A DNA stretch of 47,726 nt from Oscillospiraceae bacterium (GTDB lineage: Bacteria; Bacillota; Clostridia; Oscillospirales; Ruminococcaceae). The notes under the pieces are model-generated. The model was not told the origin of the DNA. It was given only the letters and a program-made list of their open reading frames with translations, and did no database searches. The position numbers were made by a program, and so were the translations under genes. Below are positions 20,705 to 30,481 of this stretch, piece after piece; position 1 is the first letter of the stretch, and every line of letters starts with the position of its first letter. Location of the stretch: contig JAFZPP010000049.1 of the NCBI GenBank assembly GCA_017550285.1, forward strand, positions 1-47,726, in the 5' to 3' direction.

Positions 20705-21697
20705 ATGACTGTCCGCGAACAGACCGAATCCTTTGAAAATATGATTCTCTGTGAAAATGCCTGCCATGCCGATGCTGCCGTGCGCGATGTGCCGGAGGCG
20801 CCCTGTCCGCTGCGAACCGAATTCCAGCGCGACAGAGACCGCATTCTGCACTGTACCTCGTTCCGGCGGCTCAAGCGCAAGACGCAGGTTTTTCTTTCGC
20901 CGATCGGCGATCATTACCGCACGCGGCTGACGCATACGCTCGAGGTCGCACAGATTGCGCGAACCATGGCGCGTGCGCTGCGCATGAACGAGGACCTGAC
21001 CGAAGCAATCGCACTCGGGCACGATCTGGGACATTCCCCGTTCGGGCATGCCGGCGAAGCGGCACTCAATGCAATCACGCCCGGCGGCTACAAGCACTAT
21101 GAGCAGAGCGTCCGCGTGGTCGAGTACATCGAAAAAAACGGCAGGGGGCTGAATCTCACAAAGCAGGTGCGGGACGGCATCCTCTGCCATACAAATATGA
21201 TTGCACAGACACATGAGGGCAATCTCGTGCGCCTTGCTGACAGAATTGCCTATATCAATCACGATATCGACGATGCAATCCGCGGCGGCATCCTCAAAGA
21301 GAGCGATCTGCCGAAGGACTGCACCGAGATTCTCGGACATTCCAAATCGCAGCGCATCACGACGATGATCACCTCTGTGATTGAGCACGGCGGCGAGGAA
21401 ATGGATATGATGCCGCCGATCCGGCAGGCACATGACGCGCTGCATAAATTTCTCTATCAGAATGTCTACTCCGGCTCCGCGGCAAAAACCGAGGATCACA
21501 AGGCGCAGGAGCTCATCCGCAGGCTCTATGCCTATTATTGTGAGCATCCGCAGGAAATGCCGGCAGACTATCAGGCGCTTGCGGAACGCTTTACCGTGGA
21601 ACGCGCCGTCTGTGACTATATCGCAGGCATGAGCGACGACTACGCGATCTGGGATTACGAAAAGCTCTTTATCCCGCGCTCGTGGGATGTCAGATAA
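20705..21697 (+). CDS. dgt: dGTP triphosphohydrolase-like HD domain protein
   Basis: Dgt-family enzymes remove triphosphate from dGTP or other dNTPs. The 330-aa protein has the HD-domain metal ligands in RLTHTLEVAQIARTMARAL (His), ALGHDLGHSPFGHAGE (His-Asp) and LADRIAYINHDIDD (Asp). The N-terminal FQRDRDRILHCTSFRRL motif is typical of the short clostridial Dgt type. It usually precedes dnaG and rpoD in clostridia. Here a dockerin-type gene lies between it and dnaG. Confidence 0.92.
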   Translation: MTVREQTESFENMILCENACHADAAVRDVPEAPCPLRTEFQRDRDRILHCTSFRRLKRKTQVFLSPIGDHYRTRLTHTLEVAQIARTMARALRMNEDLTEAIALGHDLGHSPFGHAGEAALNAITPGGYKHYEQSVRVVEYIEKNGRGLNLTKQVRDGILCHTNMIAQTHEGNLVRLADRIAYINHDIDDAIRGGILKESDLPKDCTEILGHSKSQRITTMITSVIEHGGEEMDMMPPIRQAHDALHKFLYQNVYSGSAAKTEDHKAQELIRRLYAYYCEHPQEMPADYQALAERFTVERAVCDYIAGMSDDYAIWDYEKLFIPRSWDVR

Positions 21698-21728
21698 GAC
21701 ATATCTTTTTAGACACCGGAGAATCTCT

Positions 21729-23018
21729 ATGAAAAAGAAAATCATCCTGACAGCCGGTCTGACCGTGCTGATGCTCGGCGCTGTCTGCGCATATCCGGTT
21801 TGTGAAATCGCATTGCGCACAGTTTTTCCCGCGGCAGCAGATGCCGCACAGAACGGCTGGCTGTTTTATCAGCGCGATGATGAAGATACTTACCGGATTT
21901 ATCTGAAAGGCACATCCATCCCTGAGAACCTGTATATTCCGGCAGAGCTGACATTTGATACAGCCGGCGCAAAAGCGAGCGGACTGCCTGAAACCGCCGG
22001 AACATACAAGATGCGGTTTTACGGATTCCTTCTGCCGAAAATCGAAACCGATCCGAGCAGAAAAGCGGGCATTCCCGACAATCTGGACGTTTACACGCTG
22101 ATCGAAGATACAAGCTGTCTGGAAAAGCTCAGAACCGTCACCGTGGAAGACGGCGCCGTGCTGACGGACAACTCCGTTTTCAAGGACTGCATCAATCTGA
22201 CAGATGTGCGGCTACCTGCCGATCTAAAAAAGCTCCCGGGCGGCTGCTTTGCAGGCTGCACAAATCTCACCTGTCTGGACATTCCGGAAACAGTTACAAG
22301 CATCGGAAACGGTGCGTTTGCGGACTGCACCGGACTGGAATCGCTTACCATACCGGAGAGCATCACGGAAATCAGCAACCGCGCATTCGCCGGCTGCACC
22401 GCTCTGAACAAAATCACGATTCCGGAGGGCATCACAAAAATCGGAGACTACGCATTTTCCGGCTGCACTGCGCTGAATAAATTCACGATTCCGGAAGGCG
22501 TCAGGACAATCGCGCAAGGTGCCTTCAGCACAAGCGGAATCGAAGAAATCGTCCTGCCGGAACATGTGGAAGCGATTGAAGGCTTTGCATTCGGCGGCTG
22601 CGAAAATCTGAAATCCGTCACGATTGAAAACCCCGCATGCAGCATTGACAACAACAATCATGTGCTCTACAGCATCTGTGATGACAGCGGCTATCACTAC
22701 GACGGCATCATTTACGGCTTGGCAGGCAGTACCGCAGAAGCCTATGCAAAAGAAAACGGCTGTCAGTTTTCAGCAATCGGCGGCAGTTCTGCATCAACTG
22801 AGGAAACCGGTCAGACTGCAACCGAGGAAGTCAGTCAGGATAAAAACGAGAACGGTCTGCCGTATGCACCTGCCGGAAGCAGATTCGGTGATGTAAACGG
22901 CGACGGCATCATCACTGCTGACGATGCACGCGGTGTTCTGCAATATTATGTGCAAACGCTCGCCGGCGACACGCCCTCATGGCGCGAAATCACCGGCAAT
23001 CCGGATGCACCGTCATAA
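21729..23018 (+). CDS. Secreted leucine-rich repeat (BspA-type) protein with half-dockerin
   Basis: The 429-aa protein has an N-terminal signal or anchor segment (about 4-24). About seven LRR_5/BspA-type repeats of roughly 23 residues follow (about 155-315; unit like IPEGITKIGDYAFSGCTALN), then a linker. The C-terminus has one calcium-loop/helix unit (FGDVNGDGIITADDARGVLQ) ending PSWREITGNPDAP. A normal dockerin has two such units, so this is a half-dockerin. The start ATG 21729 has GGAGAA upstream. It begins 31 bases after dgt and ends 26 bases before dnaG with no promoter visible, so it seems embedded in the dgt-dnaG-rpoD operon. Confidence 0.85.
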   Translation: MKKKIILTAGLTVLMLGAVCAYPVCEIALRTVFPAAADAAQNGWLFYQRDDEDTYRIYLKGTSIPENLYIPAELTFDTAGAKASGLPETAGTYKMRFYGFLLPKIETDPSRKAGIPDNLDVYTLIEDTSCLEKLRTVTVEDGAVLTDNSVFKDCINLTDVRLPADLKKLPGGCFAGCTNLTCLDIPETVTSIGNGAFADCTGLESLTIPESITEISNRAFAGCTALNKITIPEGITKIGDYAFSGCTALNKFTIPEGVRTIAQGAFSTSGIEEIVLPEHVEAIEGFAFGGCENLKSVTIENPACSIDNNNHVLYSICDDSGYHYDGIIYGLAGSTAEAYAKENGCQFSAIGGSSASTEETGQTATEEVSQDKNENGLPYAPAGSRFGDVNGDGIITADDARGVLQYYVQTLAGDTPSWREITGNPDAPS

Positions 23019-23044: not shown

Positions 23045-24802
23045 ATGCTGCCGCAGGAATTTATCTATCAGCTCAAGCAGGCAAATCCGATCGAGCAGGT
23101 CATGGGCAGCTATGTGCAGCTCATCCGTGCGGGCTCGCTGCTCAAGTGCCAGTGCCCGTTTCACTCCGAAAAAACACCCTCCTGCGTGGTCTATGCCGAT
23201 ACGCAGGACCCGCATTTCTATTGCTTCGGCTGTCATGCCGGCGGCGATGTGATTTCCTTTGTCCGGCAGATCGAGGGCATCGGCTATATGGATGCCGTCC
23301 GGATGCTGGCGGAACGCGCAGGGCTTACCGTTCCGGCGCAGGGAAATGACCGCAGAGAGGAAAATCAGCGAATGCGTCTGCTCGAGCTCAACCGCGCCGC
23401 CGCAAACTATTATTTCAAGCAGCTGACCGGTTCGGACAAGCGCGGGCTGGTCTATCTGAAAGACCGCGCACTCCGCCCCGACATCATCAAAAAATACGGG
23501 CTCGGCTTTGCAGGCGAACAGTGGGACGGGCTCCTCAATGCGATGCATCAGCTCGGCTTTACCGATGAAGAGCTGCTCGCCGCAAACCTTTGCAGCCGCT
23601 CTGCCAAAACCGGCAATCTCTATGACCGGTTCCGGAGCAGAGTCATATTCCCGATCATTGATCTGCGCGGCAATGTCATCGCATTCGGCGGCAGAACAAT
23701 CGAGAAGGAGGGCGAGCCGAAGTATCTCAATTCCTCGGATACGCCCGTCTTCAAAAAGGGACGCAATCTCTTTTCGATGAACTTTGCAAAGAAATCGCAG
23801 TCCAAGCGGCTGATTCTTGCGGAGGGCTATATGGACGTCATTGCGGTACATCAGGCGGGCTTCGAGAATGTTGTCGCGTCGCTCGGCACCGCGCTGACAC
23901 CCGATCAGTGCAGACTGATGCGGCAGTACGCCGAGGAGGTCGTGATCTCCTACGACAGCGATGCCGCAGGTCAGAATGCGACGGTCAAGGCAGTCAATCT
24001 GCTGCGCGCCGTCGGGCTCCGTCCGCGCATCCTGCATATGCATGACGCAAAGGACCCAGATGAATATATCAAAAAATTCGGCGCACCTTATTTCCGGAAG
24101 CTGCTCGAGGATGCAGACGATGCGCTGACCTACGAGCTCCGGCGATGCCGCGACGGTACCGATCCTTCCAGTGAGGACGGCACAATCACCGCACTGCATA
24201 AGGCGGTCGGCGTGCTCGCGGGCATTGAAAATGAGCTGGACAGAAACGTCTATCTTTCGCGCGTTGCGAAGGATTACGACATCAATCCGGAGCTGCTGAA
24301 ATCACAAGTCGAGCGCGAGCTCAGAAAGCGCAGGGCAGGCGCAAAGAAGGCAACATGGCGTGCCGTAACGGCAGCACCGCGGCTGCGCGATCCGGTCAAT
24401 CCGGAAGCATCGCAGCACCATGCGGAGGCAATCGCCGAGGAGCAGATTCTCTGTTACCTGTTCCGGCAGCCCGATGCGCTGGAATCCGTACTGGAAAGAA
24501 TCAAGCCGGAGGAATTCGTCACCGCGTTTCACCGAAAGGTCTACGAGCGGCTCGCAGAGATGCTGCCGCAGGGCTATGATTTTTCGCTTTCGCTCTTTTC
24601 CGGCGAGGATTTTACGCCGGATGAGACCGGCAGAATTACCGGCATTCCGGCGAAATATGCCGATATTGATATCTCGCCGCGCACCGTCGAGGACTGCATC
24701 CGGACGCTGAAACAGAAACCGATGCAGGATGTCGATGTTGCAAAGCTCAGCGATGCGGACGCTTCGGCGTTCTTCGCGCAGATCCGGCAGAACAAACGTT
24801 AA
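23045..24802 (+). CDS. dnaG: DNA primase
   Basis: DnaG makes the RNA primers for DNA replication. The 585-aa protein has the N-terminal zinc ribbon ([10 protein letters not shown] with [11 protein letters not shown]), the TOPRIM catalytic core ([15 protein letters not shown] and [13 protein letters not shown]) and a C-terminal DnaB-binding region (about 440-585). AAAGGATG precedes the ATG. It lies in the canonical position before the vegetative sigma factor genes. Confidence 0.97.
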
Positions 24803-24866
24803 TTCGCGCGTCAATCCGCGCTTTGGCTTTTATTTCGGCGCTGCGGCGCCAAGGAGGATTCAGAAA

Positions 24867-25919
24867 ATGGCAGATGAAGAAAAGCGGCTGAATCAGCTGC
24901 TCGAAAAGGCGAAGGCAACCGGCAGAATCACCATTGCCGAGGTACAGGAGGCATCCGAAGCACTTTCCGTCGATCCGGATGTCATCATGGAACGCTGCTC
25001 GGCAATGCAGATTGAACTGGCGGATGAGGATATGTCCATTGACGACATCTCCGATCCGGCTGTCACCATGGCAAATGACGAAATCTCGAATGATGACTCA
25101 GTCAAGATTTATCTGAAAGAGATTGGCAGAGTGCCGCTGCTCACTGCGGAGGAGGAAACCGAGCTTGCACGCCGCCTCGCGGATAATCCGCATGATGAAG
25201 GCGCACGGCAGCGTCTTGCGGAGGCGAATCTCCGTCTGGTCGTCAGCATCGCAAAGAAATATGTCGGCAGAGGCATGCAGTTCCTCGATCTGATTCAGGA
25301 AGGCAATATGGGTCTGCTGAAAGCCGTCGATAAGTTCGATTATACCAAAGGCTTCAAGTTCTCCACCTATGCAACATGGTGGATCCGGCAGGCAATCACC
25401 AGAGCGCTCGCCGATCAGGCGCGTACCATTCGTATCCCTGTGCATATGGTCGAGAGCATCACAAAGGTAAAGAAGGTCTCCAGCCAGATTCTCCACGAGA
25501 CGGGTCAGGAGGCAAGTCCGGAGGAAATCGCAAGCAAGCTCGAGATGCCCGTCGAAAAGGTGCTCGAGATCATGCGCATCGCACAGGATCCTGTCTCGCT
25601 CGAGACGCCGGTCGGCGAGGAGGAGGACAGCCACCTCGGCGACTTCATTCCGGACGATCAGGCGCCCTCCCCCGACGAAGCCGCCTCGAACGCCATGCTG
25701 AAGGAGCAGCTCAATGAGGTGCTCTCGACGCTCACCGACCGCGAAGCAAAGGTCATGCGGATGCGCTACGGTCTCGAAAACGGCAGACAGCAGACACTTG
25801 AGGATGTCGGAAAGGCGCTCGGCGTCACCCGCGAACGCATCCGTCAGATCGAAGCGAAGGCACTGCGCAAGCTCAAGCATTACAGCCGCAGCAAGAAATT
25901 GCAGGGCTATATTGACTGA
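24867..25919 (+). CDS. rpoD: RNA polymerase sigma factor, sigma-A type, copy 1
   Basis: The 350-aa protein has a short region 1.1, then region 1.2 ([17 protein letters not shown]). Region 2 includes the -10-melting segment ([20 protein letters not shown]), followed by region 3. Region 4 carries the -35-binding helix-turn-helix ([21 protein letters not shown]). It directs core RNA polymerase to housekeeping promoters. AAGGAGG lies before ATG 24867. It is followed 53 bases later by a second sigma factor with nearly the same regions 2-4. Its region 4.1 reads [19 protein letters not shown] and its end is [14 protein letters not shown]. Confidence 0.95.
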
Positions 25920-25972
25920 GCCGCACACAGTCGTTCATGTCATCAGATTGAATTTTGGGAGGAAAAGAAAAA

Positions 25973-27055
25973 ATGGCAACACCTGAGCAGCAGCAGAAGG
26001 TCGAACAGCTCCTCGAACGCATCAAAATGGCAGGCAAGCTCCCACAGAACGAGCTGGATGCGGCTTTTTCCGAAATGGAATTTACAGATGAGGAGATTTC
26101 ACTGTTTTATGACCAGTGCAATGCCCTGAATCTGGATTTTGCGGATGAGGATTTGCTTGATGACGATATCGAGACCAGACTCGATGAGGAGGATGCACTT
26201 TCGCTCGAAAGCGGCTCCTCGCCTGATGATCCGGTCAAGATTTATCTGAAGGAGATCGGCAGAGTTCCGCTGCTGACCCCCGAGGAGGAAACCGAGCTTG
26301 CACGCCGCCTTGCGGAGAATCCGAATGATACGGCAGCGAAGAACCGTCTTTCCGAGGCGAATCTCCGTCTGGTCGTCAGCATTGCGAAAAAATACGTCGG
26401 CAGAGGCATGCAGTTCCTCGATCTGATTCAGGAGGGCAATATGGGTCTGCTGAAAGCCGTCGATAAGTTTGATTATACCAAGGGTTTCAAATTCTCCACC
26501 TATGCAACGTGGTGGATCCGGCAATCCATTACCCGTGCAATCGCAGATCAGGCGCGCACGATCCGTATTCCGGTACACATGGTCGAAACGATCACCCGTG
26601 TCAAGAAGGCATCGAGTCAGCTTCTGCACTTAAACGGCAAAGACCCCTCCGAGGAGGAGATCGCGGATTATCTCGATATGCCGCTGGACAAGGTGCGCGA
26701 GGTCATGCGCATCGCACAGGAGCCGGTCTCGCTTGAAACGCCGATCGGCGAGGAGGAGGACAGCCACCTCGGCGACTTCATCCCCGATAACCATGCGCAG
26801 TCGCCGAATGACGCTGCGAACAATACCATGCTGAAAGAACAGCTCAATGAGGTGCTCTCGACGCTGACACCGCGTGAGGCGGATGTCCTGCGGATGCGCT
26901 ACGGTCTCGACAACGAGCCGCCGAAAACGCTCGAGGATGTCGGCAAGGCGTTCAATGTCACGCGCGAACGCATCCGTCAGATCGAAGCAAAGGCACTCCG
27001 CAAGCTGCGCCACCCGAGCCGCAGCAAAAAGGTCCGCGATTATCTCGAACACTGA
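25973..27055 (+). CDS. RNA polymerase sigma factor, sigma-A type, copy 2
   Basis: The 360-aa protein is a tandem paralogue of the preceding sigma factor. Regions 1.2, 2 and most of 3-4 are almost identical, with the same WWIRQ and [15 protein letters not shown] motifs. The N-terminal 80 residues are unrelated at the sequence level and rich in Asp/Glu. Region 4 differs in the stretch before the helix-turn-helix ([19 protein letters not shown]), in the recognition region ([12 protein letters not shown] versus [12 protein letters not shown]) and at the end ([15 protein letters not shown]). The latter end is closer to typical RpoD, so this copy may be the main housekeeping factor. GGGAGG precedes ATG 25973. 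Confidence 0.95.
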
Positions 27056-27063
27056 TAGAAATA

Positions 27064-27104
27064 ACATACGGCAGCAGATGCCATGAACATCTGCTGCCGT
27101 ATGT
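27064..27104 (+). terminator. 17-bp perfect hairpin after the sigma factor pair
   Basis: ACATACGGCAGCAGATG pairs perfectly with its complement around a 7-nt loop, nine bases after the second rpoD stop. It lacks a proper T run, so it may act as a weak terminator or as an mRNA 3' stabiliser. Confidence 0.65.
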
Positions 27105-27129
27105 CTTATGAAATCCCGCCTATGTTTTT

Positions 27130-27326: not shown

Positions 27327-27464
27327 TGATATATGATATGGAACTACTGCACAATCATCCGCCTCGGATTATTTTCGGAGAAAATGTAATCTGCGCGGCG
27401 GATTTACTGTCTGTCTTTCTGAAGCGCTTCACAAATCTGATCATCCGGAAAGGAGGTGCACCGT

Positions 27465-28019
27465 ATGAATGACGCTGAACTGATTGCGCTCTATTATGCA
27501 CGGGATGAACGTGCATCCGATGAAACCTTCCGTAAATTCGGCGGCTACTGCTATACGATTGCACATAATATTCTCGGCAGCAGTCAGGATTCGGAGGAAT
27601 GCGTCAATGACGTACTGCTGCGCCTCTGGGAGCGGATTCCGCCGGCAAAGCCTGATAATCTGTATGCCTATACTGCCGCCGTGACCCGCAGCATCGCCCG
27701 CAACCGCTATGCCGCTTCCCAGACAAAGAAGCGCGGCGGCGGCGAAACTGTACTTGTGCTCGATGAGCTCCGCGACTGCACGGACCCTGACTCCGTGGAG
27801 CAGCAGCTCGACAGCCGCGAACTCGGCACGGCAGTCAATGCCTTCCTCGGGACGCTCAAGGAACAGCACCGCATCATCTTTGTACAGCGGTACTGGTATC
27901 TCTGCCCCGTGGAAGACATCGCAGCAAACCTCGGCATCTCAAAATCAAAGGTCACGGTCACGCTGATGCGGACACGCCAGAAACTCCGGACATATCTCGA
28001 AAAGGAGGGATTCTTATGA
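27465..28019 (+). CDS. ECF-type RNA polymerase sigma factor
   Basis: The 184-aa protein has sigma region 2 (residues about 22-85, SSQDSEECVNDVLLRLWERI) and region 4 (about 125-180, EQHRIIFVQRYWYLCPVEDIAANLGI and KVTVTLMRTRQKLR), with no region 3. This is the layout of extracytoplasmic-function sigma factors. AAAGGAGGTG precedes ATG 27465. Its stop overlaps the start of the next gene (ATGA), which encodes a membrane protein with a cytoplasmic N-terminus. That is the standard arrangement of an ECF sigma and its anti-sigma factor. Confidence 0.93.
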   Translation: MNDAELIALYYARDERASDETFRKFGGYCYTIAHNILGSSQDSEECVNDVLLRLWERIPPAKPDNLYAYTAAVTRSIARNRYAASQTKKRGGGETVLVLDELRDCTDPDSVEQQLDSRELGTAVNAFLGTLKEQHRIIFVQRYWYLCPVEDIAANLGISKSKVTVTLMRTRQKLRTYLEKEGFL

Positions 28020-30481
28020 AACCGGAACAGCTGCTGGAATCTATGGAGCATATTTCCGCTGATTACATCGCAGAAGCAAAGCCGCATACGGAACCGCATC
28101 AGGAATCCCGTGTGAGGCAGCCTGAGACGGAGAAACCGGAGAAAAAGGACATCCGGAAGCATGACCGCGCAGCGGCTCCGTCCGGCACAGGAAAGGACAT
28201 CATCATGCGCAAACAATCCGTTACACAGCGCGTTACGACAGGCATTGTCGCAGCAGCAGCCTGCGCCGTATTTGTCGGCGGCGGCATTTTCATTGCACAG
28301 CAGGCAAAGCAGAACCGTCCGGAAGTCGCAAACTCCGGAAATAACATCGCAGAACAGACAAATGCAAACTTCCTCGGCGGCACCGGCGAAATCCATGTCG
28401 CCGGCACAACAGAATTCATGTATGATGACACAAGAGTCTATTTCGACTTCGGACACAGCTGCGGCAGCAGAAATACAGAAGACCTCAATGTGCTGCAAGA
28501 TACCGGCGATGCCGTCAAGAACTTTCTGACACATGTTTACTGGGACGGCGACCGGTTCTATTACGCAGACGGCATCGCGCTCTACCGGCTGAACAATGAC
28601 GGAACACATGAAAATACGCCTTTTTTCTCCGCAGACTGCTATGACGGCTCCGCAGACTGGAACGATTTTCAATATTCTGACATCACGCATCTGACCGGCA
28701 GCTATTACGGTGTCCGCATGTCACATCTGAACGGCAGTGATTACGCCGTCAGCTACTGTCTCTATAACGCGGAAACCCAGCAGGCAGAGCTCATGCCGAT
28801 TGATACCGGACATATTCAGTTCTTTGCGGAAACCGATGACAGCATTCTGCTGGAAAATCCGGAGACCGGCGGCATGACGCGCTATACGTTCAGCACGAAA
28901 TCCCGCAAGGAAATCCGCTTCAACGGTTATGAATTGGCGAACGGTAAGCTGCTGCTGCGCGATCACACGCTTTACGGTTTGATGCGCAAAACCGCAGGTG
29001 CTTCCAATGCGCTGCCGCAATACTGCAAGGTCGATCTCTCGACCGGAAACTGCGCCGAACTGATTGCCGCACCGCCGGAAATCAGCAGTTTTGCAGCATG
29101 CGGCGACAGCATCTTTACAATCACCAAGGGCATGTTCCTGAACGAGTCCGATCCGGAATTTGTGCAGCTCAATGAGCTCTGCTATTATGATGATATCAGA
29201 CCGGAGCGATTCAGCGATATTGCGGCAGAAGAAATAGATTCAGTCCCGATGTATTACGTTGTCGCTGCGGATGAAAACTATGTTGCAGTACGGCTCGGCG
29301 CGGGCTCCGATGCAGAGCGCAATCTGATCTATGACCGCAGGGAAAACAAGCCCGTTTTCTACTATCTGAATCATGCCGTACAGGAAAATCCGGTTGACAC
29401 AACAGACGGGGATACCAATCTTCTCGGCGGTACCGGAACGATCCGTCCGGTGAACGGTGAACGCGCCAGCTTTACATGGCTGCTCCGCGACGATCAGTAT
29501 TACTACATTCATACCGATGGCAACGAGGAACGCAGCTGGTTCCGCTATCCGCTCGAAGGCGGTCAGGGCACAATGATTTCCTCGCCGGTCAGCAATCCGC
29601 CTTCCAATGATATGTACGCAGAGCTGGTAACAGACGGCACGAATATCCTGAACCGTTCGCTGCAGCGGATCGTCGGCGGTGAGATGTATCCTTCCATGGA
29701 TGAGATCTGTGAAAAGCTGAGTCCGGAAGCGCAGGAAAAGAAGAATCTGCTGGAATGTGCAGGCATCTGGAAGATCGCCGACAAATACTTCATGTGGATC
29801 GCCGGACGTGAAGTGGATTATGACATTTATATCTGGCTTGACAGCAGCGGAAATATCCTTGACATGCAGGAATATGACGACGCACAGCATACCATGGGCG
29901 GCGTCTTCTGTGACCAAGAGCATGAGCATATGTACCAAACAATAGATCACGAAGATATCGGCAGGCGCCAAATTGATCTGATTCCGATGCCCGGATATCC
30001 GGATGAAAGCTATACCAGTCCGGAAGAGTGGGCCATCTCTTCAGCAGTGATCTCCGGCGGTAAAACGCTCTATTCTATGTGGTCGGAAACAGGCAAGAAT
30101 CAGTGTGAACTCCGCCTGAGCGATGATGACGGCAGCAGTATACTGCTTGCAAACGGTAACATATTATCTTTTAATACCCGCGATGATAAGGTCTATTACA
30201 CGGTTCATGACGATTCAGGTTCGGAAAATGCAGCGTATACGATTTATATGATCGACCTGCAATCCGATACACACGAGCCGGTCGCAATCTATAAATCAGA
30301 CTCCGTAACAAGTGTAAACGCCTTTACGGAAAGCAGCACTCCCGCAGGCTATGAGATCGTTGTTTACAATTCAAACCAATCTGTGATCTTCCTTGATCCC
30401 GATACCTATGCGGTGACCAGAGAGCTCAGTATGCCGGATGCTTCCGGCATGCTCGCAGGCGACGCATCGGATGCAGACTGA
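28016..30481 (+). CDS. Membrane-anchored putative anti-sigma factor/sensor, 821 aa
   Basis: Topology: a cytoplasmic N-terminus of about 70 residues (MKPEQLLESMEHISADYIAE), one membrane helix (about 74-94, TTGIVAAAACAVFVGGGIFI), and about 725 extracellular residues. The outer part carries two copies of a motif, NFLGGTGEIHV (about 118) and NLLGGTGTIRP (about 468). Each opens a region rich in Tyr/Asp beta-strands such as DDQYYYI and GDRFYYAD, suggesting two related propeller-like domains. Overlap with the ECF gene implies it binds that sigma factor. The extracellular domain would sense an unknown signal. The anti-sigma role is inferred from context; no ZAS zinc motif is visible. Confidence 0.75.
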   Translation: MKPEQLLESMEHISADYIAEAKPHTEPHQESRVRQPETEKPEKKDIRKHDRAAAPSGTGKDIIMRKQSVTQRVTTGIVAAAACAVFVGGGIFIAQQAKQNRPEVANSGNNIAEQTNANFLGGTGEIHVAGTTEFMYDDTRVYFDFGHSCGSRNTEDLNVLQDTGDAVKNFLTHVYWDGDRFYYADGIALYRLNNDGTHENTPFFSADCYDGSADWNDFQYSDITHLTGSYYGVRMSHLNGSDYAVSYCLYNAETQQAELMPIDTGHIQFFAETDDSILLENPETGGMTRYTFSTKSRKEIRFNGYELANGKLLLRDHTLYGLMRKTAGASNALPQYCKVDLSTGNCAELIAAPPEISSFAACGDSIFTITKGMFLNESDPEFVQLNELCYYDDIRPERFSDIAAEEIDSVPMYYVVAADENYVAVRLGAGSDAERNLIYDRRENKPVFYYLNHAVQENPVDTTDGDTNLLGGTGTIRPVNGERASFTWLLRDDQYYYIHTDGNEERSWFRYPLEGGQGTMISSPVSNPPSNDMYAELVTDGTNILNRSLQRIVGGEMYPSMDEICEKLSPEAQEKKNLLECAGIWKIADKYFMWIAGREVDYDIYIWLDSSGNILDMQEYDDAQHTMGGVFCDQEHEHMYQTIDHEDIGRRQIDLIPMPGYPDESYTSPEEWAISSAVISGGKTLYSMWSETGKNQCELRLSDDDGSSILLANGNILSFNTRDDKVYYTVHDDSGSENAAYTIYMIDLQSDTHEPVAIYKSDSVTSVNAFTESSTPAGYEIVVYNSNQSVIFLDPDTYAVTRELSMPDASGMLAGDASDAD

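Follow-up and report, generated by a model that had tools for sequence, protein, structure and literature searches.

The housekeeping sigma factor is usually single and is among the most constrained of bacterial proteins. In the stretch of DNA analysed here (the window, 47,726 nucleotides) the dnaG gene is followed on the same strand by two full RpoD/SigA genes, copy 1 and copy 2, Table 1. The first-pass annotation had described two complete sigma-A proteins lying next to each other, and this was exact in its coordinates, lengths and spacing with both reading frames open. Copy 2 has a canonical tail of 15 residues. The C-terminal end of copy 1, 14 residues long, is altered.

Table 1. Coordinates of the features at the dnaG–rpoD–rpoD locus of the window.
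Feature	Coordinates	Strand	Remarks
dnaG (DNA primase), upstream neighbour	23045..24802	+	Pfam Zn_ribbon_DnaG, DNAG_N, Toprim, DnaB_bind; classical dnaG–rpoD locus
Stem-loop, G+C, 5 bp, directly 5' of the copy 1 AAGGAGG	24837..24850	+	Found by folding
Copy 1, RpoD/SigA paralogue, 350 aa	24867..25919	+	ATG at 24867, TGA ending at 25919
Copy 1 region 1.1, residues 1–76, weak match	24867..25094	+	Pfam Sigma70_r1_1 22.1 bits, cut-off 22.5
Copy 1 region 2, residues 113–190	25203..25436	+	Signs of gene conversion with copy 2
Copy 1 tail past the −35 helix, residues 337–350	25875..25916	+	R599K, P601Y, D609G, L611I relative to unduplicated relatives (E. coli numbering)
Intergenic gap, 53 nt, holding the copy 2 ribosome-binding site	25920..25972	+	
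Copy 2, RpoD/SigA paralogue, 360 aa	25973..27055	+	ATG at 25973, TGA ending at 27055
Hairpin, 20 bp, just past copy 2	27063..27105	.	Scan puts the T-run on the minus strand side

The ribosome-binding sites are AAGGAGG for copy 1 and GGGAGG for copy 2. No promoter-like site was found on the plus strand of the gap between the copies, no conserved promoter was seen there among relatives, and the gap varies in both length (23–90 nt) and sequence among them. These observations suggest that transcription of copy 2 is probably by read-through from copy 1, and both copies are probably made from the dnaG operon. The stem-loop in front of copy 1 could act as a control of translation or of RNA stability; comparable stem-loops, differing in sequence, were present in 10 of the 24 genomes of the genus that were folded. 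The hairpin past copy 2 is a possible end of the operon, and a hairpin of this strength is absent from many relatives. A terminator-like site at 24806–24821, between dnaG and copy 1, is weak on its own because nine such sites were found in the region against 4.2 expected in shuffled sequences. Upstream, a gene for a BspA-type leucine-rich repeat protein (21687–23018) lies between an HD phosphohydrolase gene and dnaG, and the C-terminal stretch of this protein, judged by eye, resembles a dockerin. Downstream of the pair there is an ECF sigma factor gene (27456–28019), sharing 4 bases with a large open reading frame (28016–30481) which gave no Pfam match and is possibly the anti-sigma partner of the adjoining ECF factor.

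Both proteins exceeded the cut-off of 354 bits for the C-terminal RpoD model TIGR02393 (385.9 bits for copy 1 and 398.1 bits for copy 2) and both fell below the cut-off of 572 bits for the full-length RpoD model NF006666 (508.7 and 534.4 bits). Sigma regions 1.2, 2, 3 and 4 gave Pfam matches over the cut-off in both copies. Region 1.1 of copy 2, at 21.5 bits, was just under the cut-off like that of copy 1; four unduplicated relatives scored 40.0–50.4 bits for this region, about twice as much, and genome G022 of the same genus scored only 11.9 bits, weaker than either window copy. The genome to which the window belongs (G000, 3.4 Mb) contains 53 matches to sigma-70 region 2. The two rpoD copies head this list at 89.7 and 87.6 bits, the next match has only 66.3 bits, and thus no third RpoD was found by the region 2 search in this assembly, which is 96.35% complete. 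The two proteins have several features of group 1 (primary) sigma factors, namely regions 1.2–4 of RpoD type, nearly all of the residues that read the −10 and −35 elements and no further RpoD found beside them. The number of region 2 matches is widely spread within the genus, 53 in G000 against 6 in G022.

Two RpoD matches were found in 25 of the 30 genomes of the genus (one in three, none in two), in 11 of 248 genomes of the family (one in 228, none in nine) and in 25 of 297 genomes of the order (one in 264, none in eight), the two-match counts being lower bounds as a second copy weaker than E 1e-90 was not counted. The earlier statement that most bacteria have one rpoD here thus holds for the order, but doubling is commoner than was supposed. 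Among the two-match genomes of the order, the copies lie on the same strand at most 1 kb apart in 18 and on separate contigs in seven. The order dnaG–rpoD–rpoD, with varying gaps, was seen in 20 genomes besides the window. Within the window's genus the G024 pair is very divergent, both copies of G019 are fragmentary and on separate contigs, and copy 1 of G027 is broken across two contigs. Six named records match the genus, under the titles Oscillospiraceae bacterium, uncultured Ruminococcus sp. or Clostridiales bacterium Firm_04; they are metagenome assemblies, with a sheep rumen sample and a horse faeces sample among them. No description of a tandem rpoD in this order was found in the open-access literature searched.

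A phylogeny of both copies had been proposed as a check, and in trees of order members the copies of the main clade of the window's genus form separate clades arising from one duplication. With 99 sequences in the tree, the copy 1 and copy 2 sequences of this main clade fell into one group each (SH-aLRT support 99 and 96), and a node with support 99 united the two. This tree used 99 of the 114 aligned rows; G002, G003, G016, G025, G028, G029 and G244 were dropped to thin the set, and G373_1 (in-frame TAG) and G512_2 (doubtful start) were also left out. A tree of 45 sequences gave 100/99 for the copy 1 clade, 100/99 for the copy 2 clade and 98/95 for their union. Since the copies of the main clade form two clades, they derive from one tandem duplication which predates the species of that clade. 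Other pairs behaved differently. The two copies of G528 formed a clade (100/99) next to single-copy genomes of the genus to which G528 belongs, and those of G190 formed one (99/90) next to the single-copy G109. A single ancient duplication for five lineages, a grouping named after the tree had been seen, was rejected with p-AU 1.3e-10 (44 rows, the long branch G263_1 being left out of the 45). Given this rejection and the separate grouping of the G528 and G190 pairs, there were at least three separate origins of rpoD pairs, and pairs in other families probably add further ones, with the caution that gene conversion within a genome can group two copies and so mimic a fresh duplication. The G012 pair could derive from the main duplication or from a separate one, as AU tests of its separateness gave p-AU of 0.256 and 0.177. 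Collections of phages and plasmids contained no record whose best place reached at least 80% identity, the best eight listed of each lying at 53–71%, and a phage or plasmid origin of the extra copy was therefore set aside.

The divergence between the copies is unevenly distributed along the protein. Mean amino acid identity between the two copies within one genome was 26% in region 1.1, 77% in region 1.2, 94% in region 2, 69% in regions 3.0–3.1, 77% in region 3.2 and 73% in region 4, measured over the 19 main-clade genomes in which both copies are full-length (G019, G026, G027 and G029 were left out because of partial copies). For orthologues, identity was 73–74% in region 1.1 and 86–100% elsewhere. 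Over the whole protein the copies differ by about 30%. The first-pass annotation was thus correct that the N-terminal regions differ; its description of an almost identical core fits region 2 but not regions 3.0–3.1 and 4. Both copies are under purifying selection, dN/dS being 0–0.039 for both in eight genome pairs. Across the clade, 29 positions of the stretch alignable with E. coli sigma-70 tell the two copies cleanly apart. At 12 of these positions a residue shared by at least 21 of 24 unduplicated RpoDs is changed in copy 1 only, and at three in copy 2 only, and by this comparison of sequences copy 1 is the more changed and copy 2 the more canonical protein.

At codons with equal amino acids, the codons of region 2 agreed in 69.4% of cases between copy 1 and copy 2 from one genome against 57.2% between copies from different genomes (18 genomes, G025 being dropped as a near-copy of the window). 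This excess of 12.2 points compares with 5.4–6.5 points in the other regions of the same genomes, and with genome effects removed region 2 exceeded regions 3 and 4 in 14 of the 18. At third positions of region 2 the nearest sequence was the other copy of the same genome in 13 of 38 cases; the corresponding figures were 3/38 for region 1.2, 0/38 for regions 1.1 and 3 and 1/38 for region 4. The longest run of identical codons was significant (p ≤0.05) in 11 of 19 genomes, with nine of the 11 falling inside region 2. There are, then, signs that patchy gene conversion partly homogenises region 2. Five amino acid differences between the copies nevertheless persist there in 18 of the 19 genomes (four in G007).

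The residues W433, W434, Q437 and T440, which we take to be the −10 reading positions, are the same in both window copies. So are R554, R562, R584, E585, R586, R588, Q589, K593 and R596 (E. coli positions). One source lists 16 positions of sigma-70 region 4 which contact the −35 element (PMC4943231), and of the contacts listed there 14 are equal in both copies and two differ. These 14 and the −10 readers are also nearly invariant over all 114 rows. Judged from these residues, equal reading of core promoters by both copies is likely but not certain.

The tail after the −35 helix presents a different picture. The 24 unduplicated relatives keep R599, H600, P601, S602, R603, D at 609 and L at 611. 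The four changes in the copy 1 tail are fixed in all 20 copy 1 sequences and are therefore not drift. To compare other lineages, 12 tandem pairs were used, one per genus except for three from the window's genus (main clade, G012 and G024), with G512 and G373 left out; the split pair of G184 entered the residue comparison of pairs only and is outside the discordance test. Taking as invariant the positions unchanged in the 24 unduplicated relatives, the seven invariant tail positions showed 37 discordant changes (5.29 per position out of 12) against 199 over all 142 invariant positions (1.40 per position). None of 20000 random seven-position sets matched the tail count, and a single one of 136 runs of seven consecutive invariant positions reached it, the highest of all. 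The helix-turn-helix stretch 573–598 was quiet, with 0.68 discordant changes per position.

In 10 of the 11 other pairs, at least one copy has a departing tail. The motif HPSRS is altered in one copy in seven of the 12 pairs, in both copies in four and in neither in one, so that one canonical and one rebuilt tail is the state of seven pairs. Of 80 named loci chosen for their similarity to copy 1, 15 have two RpoDs and 65 have one; for 17 of the 65 a contig end is so close that a neighbouring RpoD could have been missed. The canonical tail motif is present in 62 of these 65, and G022 is among the other three. Relaxed constraint after duplication may explain part of the tail pattern in other lineages but can hardly account for a tail that is fixed throughout a clade. 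One study models R599 and K593 of E. coli sigma-70 as residues touched by the activator IscR (PMC8561392).

The retention of both copies had been taken in the first-pass annotation to suggest divided labour in promoter choice or condition. Long retention of two distinct, apparently functional housekeeping sigma factors is supported. Divided labour by promoter choice has little support, as the reading residues are mostly equal. A division by condition or by regulatory partner is favoured here. In such a scheme an ancestral tandem duplication of rpoD would have given two group 1-like housekeeping sigma factors, both of which were kept. Their holoenzymes would open largely the same housekeeping promoters and would differ in the surfaces presented to regulators or polymerase, namely region 1.1, region 3 and the tail by the −35 helix, the last being close to residues for which contacts with activators have been modelled in E. 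coli. With an altered tail on copy 1 and a canonical tail on copy 2, the ratio of the two sigma factors would change the answer of the shared promoter set to activators or growth state, not the choice of −10 and −35 elements. We regard this proposal of two housekeeping holoenzymes, with shared core promoters, different regulatory surfaces and a response tuned by their ratio, as having an even chance of being right. Region 1.1 is described in one source as a gatekeeper of the DNA channel in E. coli (PMC4598750); the case for a copy-specific gatekeeper is blurred because this region is weak in both copies and weaker still in G022. No partner distinguishing the copies was found, and Spo0A does not track the tandem pairs.

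Alternatively, the two sigma factors might be interchangeable and be kept for amount or through inertia, having diverged neutrally outside the parts that read DNA. The near equality of the DNA-reading residues and the signs of homogenisation in region 2 would fit this, as would genome G022 (96% complete, 30 contigs), from which copy 2 has gone. G022 has one RpoD match at E 1e-25, a copy 1 on a 128-kb contig, and is the only genome of the 30 in the genus with copy 1 alone and the only one from which copy 2 is missing. No remnant of copy 2 was found in the 600 nt downstream, which hold a hairpin and then a gene that looks to us like mscL. The G022 protein has the copy 1 state at 29 of the 29 class-specific positions, although it was itself among the 20 copy 1 sequences that defined them. 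However, neutral divergence should vary among species, and the 29 positions split the copies cleanly across the clade; the dN/dS of at most 0.039 for both copies also argues against redundancy. We therefore consider simple dosage unlikely.

A further possibility is that each copy recognises −10, −35 or discriminator sequences of its own. The two differing −35 contacts are position 570, Q in copy 1 and P in copy 2, and position 571, Q in copy 1 and K in copy 2, and copy 2 also has A438S adjoining Q437. With these differences, promoter reading need not be equal, and the moderate identities of regions 1.2, 3.0–3.1 and 4 leave scope for it. Copy 2 of G012 (locus L030) carries R584H and R588S in the −35 helix together with a canonical tail, its sibling having the altered tail; this could possibly change −35 reading, in one assembly, and changed reading may thus occur in the group. 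The first-pass annotation had placed the region 4 difference near the −35-binding helix, and differences do lie in region 4.1, in the turn before the helix-turn-helix, in its first helix and in the tail, but the recognition helix itself is the same. As the main −10 readers and 14 of the 16 listed −35 contacts are equal in both copies, distinct core promoter choice has little support and we think it quite unlikely as the reason for keeping the pair.

The tail of sigma region 4 is the contact patch for Spo0A in B. subtilis. Copy 2, with a canonical patch, might then serve sporulation and copy 1 vegetative growth. In favour of this, neither Spo0A nor SpoIVA was found in G022, which has copy 1 alone and only six sigma-70 region 2 matches against 12–53 in eight other genomes of the genus. 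This genome suggests that copy 1 can serve as the sole housekeeping sigma factor there and that copy 2 may have a link to regulated programmes. It is, however, a single event in a small genome. Neither Spo0A nor SpoIVA was found in G018 (77% complete) and yet both rpoD copies are present, and the tandem pairs of G190 and G512 occur in genomes without Spo0A. No general link between tandem pairs and Spo0A was apparent, as 17 of 19 tandem-pair genomes and 20 of 22 single-copy genomes carry it. The sporulation reading is thus improbable. Finally, a collapsed or chimeric assembly, a pseudogene or a peculiarity of one strain can be dismissed with near certainty, for although these are draft genomes, with metagenome assemblies as the named records of the genus and an in-frame TAG in the first copy of G373, the copies in the window have open frames and differ too much in protein, two matches occur in most genomes of the genus, the tree has two clades and the same gene order with varied gaps recurs in the 20 further loci.

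The preferred reading, two housekeeping sigma factors with different regulatory surfaces, can be set beside known systems. SigA/RpoD at the dnaG–rpoD locus of E. coli shares regions 1.2–4, nearly all DNA-reading residues and the place after dnaG; the differences are the presence of two copies instead of one and the altered tail of copy 1. SigA/RpoD of B. subtilis likewise lies at a dnaG–rpoD locus. Burkholderia and actinobacteria have extra RpoD-like alternative primary sigma factors which form separate group 1 lineages, and B. xenovorans has an additional rpoD copy, according to PMC2194791. These factors likewise have all promoter-recognition domains and are given no known role there. Unlike them, the copies described here lie in tandem and, in trees built from members of the order (with no actinobacterial or Burkholderia rows), fall among RpoDs from the same family, and an alternative primary sigma factor of a lineage apart from the host RpoD was thus rejected as a description. 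Group 2 sigma factors (cyanobacterial group 2, RpoS) are given in PMC4598750 as structurally close to group 1, lacking region 1.1 and non-essential. By comparison, both copies here have a weak region 1.1 and the pair are the only RpoD-class proteins found in the genome.

Extra RpoD-like factors are therefore known, and the present case differs in that the rpoD linked to dnaG has repeatedly doubled in tandem, with the changes focused on the tail. A broader proposal is put forward tentatively, and we doubt it more than we believe it: that Oscillospirales-type gut bacteria have repeatedly evolved dual housekeeping sigma factors with the same core promoter reading, typically one canonical and one rebuilt tail, region 2 being held alike by conversion and two regulatory modes being set by the ratio of the two proteins. 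Repeated doubling at one locus amounts to a set of natural experiments on the role of the tail surface, and also on the question whether a single set of promoters can work in two modes. There is a practical consequence for annotation, in that pipelines expecting a single rpoD may merge or drop a copy in gut and rumen bacteria.

A different arrangement was seen in three genomes of genus g72 (G244, G184 and G100; loci L066–L071), those fetched of the four with two matches. Here a second RpoD-class gene lies on a different contig, in a longer frame of 460–467 amino acids, and has an altered tail.
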